38,499 nucleotides of DNA from an uncultured SAR86 cluster bacterium (lineage in GTDB: Bacteria; Pseudomonadota; Gammaproteobacteria; Magnimaribacterales; D2472), in contig CACDCN010000011.1 of the NCBI GenBank assembly GCA_902551185.1, positions 1-38,499 of the forward strand. Direction: 5' to 3'. Both the position numbers and the translations under genes were made by a program. Position 1 is the first letter of the stretch, and each line of letters begins with the position of its first letter. The notes below the pieces were generated by a model, which was not told where the DNA came from, made no database searches, and was given only the letters and a program-made list of their open reading frames with translations. This document shows, piece by piece, positions 32,452-34,104 of the stretch.

Positions 32452-34104
32452 ATGACTAATAAAAATAAGCAATATAGAATTGAGAAAGGTCTTTTACTGT
32501 TTACACAGCCTAGATCGCCCTACTTCTATGGAAAAATTCGTATTAATGGTAAATATCGAACTCAATCTTTTGCTCCAATCTCTGATATAAACACAGCTAA
32601 GGAAAGGTTATATGAATGGCGTGATGAAATCATCAGTAATGAAAATGATTTTCAAACTAAGAGTATACCTAATAGAAATGAATATACTTCTTTCGAAAAA
32701 TTAGAAAATAATTTCCAATTCCTTGATGTAGGAAGATTTGATCCTTCTAAAAAAACACCAGATGAAAGAAAAATTAATTTTGTTGAAATTTATGGTGAAT
32801 ATAATCAAGTCCAAGCAGCTAACCAGGCTCATAGATGTTTAGACTGTGGGAACCCCTATTGTGAATGGAAATGTCCTGTACATAACTATATTCCTGATTG
32901 GTTAAAGTTAGTTAATGAAGGAAATATTATAGAAGCGGCAGATTTATGCCATTCAACAAATAGTCTTCCAGAAGTATGTGGAAGAGTATGCCCACAAGAT
33001 CGTTTATGTGAAGGTGCTTGCACTTTAAATGATGGATTCGGTGCTGTCACTATTGGCTCAATTGAAAAATATATTACTGAAAAGGCTTTTGACATGGGCT
33101 GGAAGCCTGATTTGTCTCATAGAAAGTGGACTGATAAAAAAGTTGCTGTCATAGGCGCAGGGCCTGCAGGTATAGCATGTGCTGATGTGTTAACAAGATC
33201 AGGAATAAAAAGTCATGTATATGATAGGAATCAAGAAATTGGTGGATTACTTACATTTGGCATTCCTGAATTTAAATTAGAAAAATCTGTCATTAAAAGG
33301 AGAAGAAAAATACTTGAGGAAATGGGTATCAGTTTTCATTTAGGAAAAGAAATTGGAAAAGATGTTCCTTTTAAAAGTATATATGAAGATCATGATGCAG
33401 TTTTTCTTGCAATGGGAACATATACATCTTTAGAAGGTGGTTTTAAAGGCGAAAAATTACCTGGAGTTTATAAAGCTTTAGATTATTTAATAGCAAATAC
33501 AAAAAAACTACTTAATATGAGCAAAAACAAAGAGGAGTACATTAATTTTAAAGGGAAGAAAGTGGTAGTTTTAGGCGGTGGAGATACTGCAATGGATTGT
33601 AATAGAACAGCTATAAGACAAGGTGCTAAATCAGTAACATGCTTATATAGAAGAGATGAAAAAAATATGCCAGGTTCAAGAAGAGAGGTTAAAAATGCTA
33701 AAGAAGAAGGTGTAATTTTTGATTTCAATATACAACCAATTGATATCTTAGGAAATACAAAAGTAGAAGGCGTTAAGGTGGTTAAAACAGAGTTAGGAGA
33801 AAGAGATCAAAATGGCAGACAAGTTCCATTACCTATCCCTGGATCAGAGAAAATTTATGATGCAGATGTTGTTATTATTGCATTTGGTTTTAGAGCCAGT
33901 CCTGCAAAATGGTTTGAAAATTTTAATATTGAAACTAAAAAAAATGGTCTCGTTGTTGCTAAAGAAGATCAAGAATATAAATTTCAGACATCAAATAAAA
34001 AAATATTCTCTGGCGGAGATATGGTAAGAGGCTCTGATTTGGTAGTTACCGCAATTTGGGAAGGGAGAGAAGCAGGTAAAAGTATTATAGAATACGTTTC
34101 ATGA
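32452..34104 (+). CDS. gltD: Glutamate synthase small subunit with N-terminal integrase-like extension (about 32452-32690)
   Basis: GltD core from [79 protein letters not shown]. The preceding ~80 aa ([57 protein letters not shown]) are not part of GltD. Confidence 0.95.

Follow-up and report, generated by a model that had tools for sequence, protein, structure and literature searches.

How does GltD in an uncultured SAR86 bacterium come to begin with a segment resembling the DNA-binding end of a phage integrase, and what might that segment do on a metabolic enzyme? The question is posed by a 38,499-nucleotide stretch of DNA (hereafter the window), which is contig C11 of a 0.92-Mb genome that is 77% complete. 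A preliminary description of the window had proposed that gltD carries an in-frame extension of about 80 residues of the integrase type, and that the product is a functional chimera.

The extended gltD gene

The gltD reading frame lies at 32452-34104 on the forward strand, encodes 550 amino acids and reads as it had been quoted. The TIGR01318 model of gammaproteobacterial GltD covers residues 88-549 (E 2.7e-222, 738 bits against a curated cut-off of 483), and the further matches to Fer4_20 (residues 107-216) and Pyr_redox_2 bear out the earlier statement that the cysteine cluster and nucleotide-binding motifs are intact. The window's protein thus has the full core of gammaproteobacterial GltD proteins (32713-34101), with its Fe-S cysteines and two nucleotide-binding domains, but differs from them in an N-terminal extension of 87 residues, which are extra because the TIGR01318 match begins at residue 88. 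The extension consists of an integrase-type arm-binding domain of about 58 residues (residues 4-61, 32461-32634) and a variable linker (residues 62-87, 32635-32712). Of the bounds originally given for the segment, 32452 to 32760, the part containing the domain and the linker, which ends near 32712, stands, whereas 32713-32760 already belongs to the GltD core. Since residues 88-549 are GltD, the product is not an integrase, and neither the core-binding (SAM-like) nor the catalytic R-H-R-Y domain of tyrosine recombinases is found in it.

There is no in-frame ATG, GTG or TTG between codon 1 and codon 140, in agreement with the claim that no alternative start precedes the core, so any GltD translated from one of the usual start codons necessarily includes the extension. 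In the window genome the reading frame stays open upstream of the start as well (TTG at 32371), but relatives conserve the start and the domain and not this upstream stretch.

Homology to tyrosine recombinases

Curated families give little purchase on the domain. Scans of the single extension sequence against Pfam, PHROGs and NCBIfam returned nothing above cut-off, and scans of all members of the alignment gave weak integrase-type matches (Pfam DUF6538, 0.005; Arm-DNA-bind_3, 0.16; PHROG "integrase", 0.0079), none of the Pfam or PHROG families reaching its cut-off. The domain shares with the Arm-DNA-bind families and DUF6538 the pattern LYxRxxSPYWxxxxxxxGKxxRxSTxTxDxxEAxxxxxxW and a predicted beta-sheet and helix, but differs from them in that no curated model recognizes it at cut-off and that it sits on enzymes rather than on a recombinase. 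A class-wide search with DUF6538 gave one match, to a different integrase type.

Profile searches were more informative. An order-wide search, queried with an alignment of the extensions of GltD and of the Rieske protein PetA (see below), found a 382-amino-acid SAR86 tyrosine recombinase that begins with the same domain (E 2e-9), has a SAM-like domain according to Pfam and is similar over its full length to plasmid integrases. A class-wide search of 370 genomes, in which the query was enlarged by the sequence of the SAR86 integrase and the domains of the Ior-like enzymes (see below), gave matches in 16 genomes outside SAR86. All of these with a readable full-length reading frame are N-termini of tyrosine recombinases and end in the tyrosine-recombinase signature; the weak matches L216, L222 and L225 fall in short or truncated frames without it. 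When alignments sharing no members were compared by hhalign, GltD matched the integrases at 91% (E 1.1e-6), PetA matched the integrases at 98.9% and GltD matched PetA at 97.8%. By these sequence comparisons, the domain in the gltD extension shares its ancestry with the arm-binding domain at the N-terminus of tyrosine recombinases, as the preliminary description had suspected; of the HHpred- or InterPro-type check that it proposed, the profile-profile part finds the integrase similarity and the curated-family part stays below cut-off.

An AlphaFold model of the extension, another check proposed at that time, predicts a beta-sheet of four strands and a C-terminal helix (pLDDT 94.6), consistent with the generally known fold of the arm-binding domains of tyrosine recombinases. 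Foldseek searches of the PDB and of viral models returned no significant match for the 60-residue domain, a PDB sequence search with the extension returned nothing relevant, and neither tblastn of the extension against phage and plasmid sequences nor scans of viral contigs found relatives. The named relatives of the extension domain are SAR86 cluster bacteria. In the open literature that we searched, no GltD or Rieske protein is described as carrying an integrase domain.

The SAR86 recombinase (L169/L207) is encoded directly downstream of tRNA-Phe in the same orientation, with repeats in its promoter, and an integrase of this tRNA-linked type is the likely ancestor. In L207 (6146-8268) the recombinase gene beside tRNA-Phe is followed by a DNA methyltransferase gene, and a small integrated element probably ends here.

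Distribution in the family and a tandem box upstream of gltD

The domain is carried by 94 of the 107 genomes of the window's SAR86 family in the order-wide search. The remaining 13 have no intact gltD in their assemblies (in G509 the gene is cut by the contig end), and an intact gltD without the extension was not seen among the 107. The extension thus characterizes a whole clade, being fixed in one SAR86 family, and is no peculiarity of the window. Some fairly complete genomes of the family, G070, G082 and G516 among them, show no gltD, either because they have truly lost glutamate synthase or because contigs are missing. In a sister SAR86 family, gltD has no extension and follows gltB after a gap of 2 nt in a tandem operon; in contrast, the window's gltD is divergent from gltB and has its own upstream region. 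The fusion in the window's family is a single ancestral event.

In the window, gltB (27936-32363, reverse strand), named from its sequence as the glutamate synthase large subunit, is intact, with its start set at 32363 to match that of the aligned gene in L204. The intergenic region common to the two genes (32364-32451) contains -10-like hexamers in both directions and a tandem box, GTCATACTATGTCATAC (32422-32438, forward strand), of two GTCATAC half-sites at a 10-bp pitch, which we propose as an operator and a homologue of arm-type sites. Downstream, a hemE-like gene (34101-35138, forward strand) overlaps the gltD stop by 4 bases and is probably co-transcribed with gltD; the gltD-hemE order is kept in L204-L206. 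A PII-like nitrogen regulator gene (GlnB/GlnK by sequence) is found on the same contig at 14808-15146.

The exact box pattern, GTCATACNNNGTCATAC, occurs once per genome in 53 of 100 genomes, all of the window's family and always at gltD; it occurs in no genome of other families, and a reversed control pattern gave no hits. The box is also present upstream of gltD in all 80 loci chosen by the protein domain alone. Its 14 defined positions are at least 99% conserved in 80 distinct upstream sequences while the flanks drift, these 80 having been chosen by the pattern, and the unbiased tests are the scan with its 53 genomes and the 80 protein-selected loci. In 82 measured sequences the box stands 3 to 35 nt from the gltD start codon, a variability that would be expected of a site in DNA but not of a coding segment. 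Two-mismatch variants are scattered elsewhere in some genomes, and a relaxed search for a wider regulon returned only these. Rfam has no match to the gltD upstream region, so no known riboswitch is present there. Read on the gltB strand (32421-32439), the box holds ATGACA, a -35-like hexamer, which in roughly half of the sequences is plausibly spaced from a -10-like hexamer. The box could therefore contain promoter hexamers, and may also act on gltB.

Repeats of similar layout are found at integrase genes. Several of the integrases that carry the domain have tandem repeats upstream with a 10-11-bp pitch: TAACACActtTAACACA / TAACACACTTTAACACA at the SAR86 integrase beside tRNA-Phe, TAGCACACTCTTAGCACACT and TTACACAATTGTTACACA at related integrases, and CTAGCACAACGCTAGCACA at plasmid integrases of Novosphingobium and Bradyrhizobium. 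Taken singly, the repeats that are present reach no more than modest significance (shuffle fractions 0.006 to 0.12), and the domain also occurs on integrases that have none. The gltD box, read on the opposite strand as TATGACAtagTATGACA / TATGACATAGTATGACA, has the layout of these repeats.

The same domain on PetA and Ior-like enzymes

In the sister family, the Rieske protein PetA can carry the domain as an N-terminal fusion. All 12 extended petA genes of one SAR86 genus, these being the genomes with readable upstream DNA, have two TTGAACAC...TGTTCAA pairs and an intergenic region of their own, while all six unextended petA genes of the same genus lack such a site and start just after rpsI. 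Elsewhere in the 12 genomes the pattern recurs only in a palindromic copy that counts once on each strand, and the others have none. The association of domain and repeats gives a Fisher p of 5e-5, which ignores kinship. In a FastTree tree with modest support, lineages with and without the extension are intermingled, which makes more than one change of state probable. The 12 include G567, in which a domain frame of 112 amino acids (L172, 1276-1611) and PetA (L191) are in separate frames owing to a sequencing indel or a real split, and whose upstream DNA is in L172.

A further fusion, to an indolepyruvate:ferredoxin-oxidoreductase-like (Ior-like) enzyme of 1246 or 1256 amino acids with POR, TPP and DUF6537 domains, is found in two genomes of one genus in the window's own family (L167, 1537-5274; L168, 1637-5404, reverse strand). 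Just before the ATG these genes have TATACACA repeats and/or an inverted CACAG/CTGTG pair. The domain is thus present on at least two enzymes besides GltD, each with its own upstream repeats. The preliminary description was right about the extension but had missed the conserved box, the clade-wide spread and these two fusions.

Proposed autoregulation by a captured integrase cassette and its alternatives

We consider it probable that the promoter, arm sites and arm-binding domain of an integrase were captured together and made GltD an autoregulated enzyme; the domain homology and the linkage of domain and box come from sequence, and from these we infer DNA binding, repression and any switch by a metabolite. 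Given the single ancestral event in the window's family, the box and the domain could be co-conserved for separate reasons, and their linkage in that family alone is no proof of interaction, because they have one common origin. This common origin leaves some room for an alternative that we regard as unlikely but not negligible, in which the domain has a function but serves as a tether of GltD (to DNA, RNA or GltB), and a different transcription factor binds the conserved box. That alternative does not sit well with the recurrence of the pattern at petA and ior with different repeats, with petA repeats that are present or absent exactly as the domain is, or with related integrases that have similar repeats at the equivalent place. 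Less likely still, by about half, is that the box is core promoter only, kept for RNA polymerase as an extended -10-like TGTCATACT for gltD and the -35-like ATGACA for gltB. CATACT and ATGACA do resemble -10 and -35 hexamers, and their spacing fits in part of the sequences, but near-invariance of all 14 defined bases in 80 sequences, an exact 10-bp tandem repeat and a single exact occurrence per genome would be unexpected of a core promoter.

Mobile-element remnants are common, and the fast-evolving linker might suggest that an inserted integrase left the extension behind as a neutral relic, a view to which we give very little credence. Mean identity to the window's protein is 76% in the domain, 37% in the linker and 82% in the GltD body (119 comparisons), and pN/pS is 0.09-0.33, 0.36-1.19 and 0.09-0.26, respectively, with synonymous sites near saturation, which places the domain near the enzyme body. 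Together with 24 positions of the domain that are invariant among 21 diverse sequences, these values indicate that the extension domain is under purifying selection, and we reject a neutral remnant on the selection and distribution data; selection on both the domain and the enzyme parts also speaks for the functional chimera first proposed. An assembly or gene-calling artefact, conceivable with genomes that are mostly MAGs and single-cell genomes, can be dismissed, as the comparison of gltD N-termini across relatives recovers the identical open frame, with no alternative start, in many independent assemblies from all sampled genera of the family, single-cell genomes included.

Autoregulation of GltD through a captured cassette is, by contrast, favoured as the best explanation by the domain homology, the purifying selection, the near-invariant and unique box, the co-occurrence of box and domain and the recurrence on two other enzymes, on an evidence base of sequences, mostly from MAGs and single-cell genomes. 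We envisage that the 5' portion of an integrase gene, comprising the promoter, the arm-type sites and the arm-binding domain, was captured before gltD in the ancestor of the SAR86 family and kept. GltD would then bind the tandem box through its integrase domain and control its own gene, most likely by repression, with hemE, and perhaps gltB, controlled together with it. The flexible linker and a multimeric enzyme would allow two domains to occupy two half-sites on one face of the helix, cooperatively at the 10-bp pitch. Substrate, assembly with GltB or the Fe-S state could act as the switch. As each of the three host enzymes is an Fe-S protein, the regulation may be linked to cluster state. 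It is quite possible, although a step short of probable, that SAR86 has domesticated such a cassette on three or more occasions, giving self-regulating Fe-S enzymes (GltD, Rieske PetA and the Ior-like enzyme) whose own amount or Fe-S state sets their transcription in a streamlined genome.

The proposed arrangement has parallels in known systems. PutA is a metabolic enzyme with a fused ribbon-helix-helix DNA-binding domain that represses its own genes. Like such trigger enzymes, GltD joins an enzyme to a DNA-binding domain, as judged by homology, and has a specific predicted site, the conserved and unique box of tandem repeats, beside its own gene; unlike PutA, it would use an integrase arm-binding domain, and its autoregulation is proposed from sequence. 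The second parallel is with integrases themselves, since tRNA-linked integrases whose promoter overlaps attL, intS and others among them, are negatively autoregulated (PMC2951348). In IntS of KplE1 and its relatives (PMC2951348), arm-type sites overlap the promoter of the gene for the arm-binding protein, and the SAR86 integrase L169/L207 has an equal layout; gltD differs from them in having a metabolic enzyme in place of the core-binding and catalytic domains.

Implications

The predicted pairs of protein and site, namely GltD with GTCATAC, PetA with TTGAACAC and the Ior-like enzyme with ATACACAG, could be tested in vitro without culturing SAR86, and from domains and sites matched in this way one could learn how arm-binding domains recognize DNA. 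If our proposal is true, the integrases of mobile elements supply ready-made circuits, in which one captured piece brings a promoter, an operator and a DNA-binding domain. It would also give SAR86, highly abundant bacteria of the surface ocean, a direct regulatory mechanism for ammonium assimilation.
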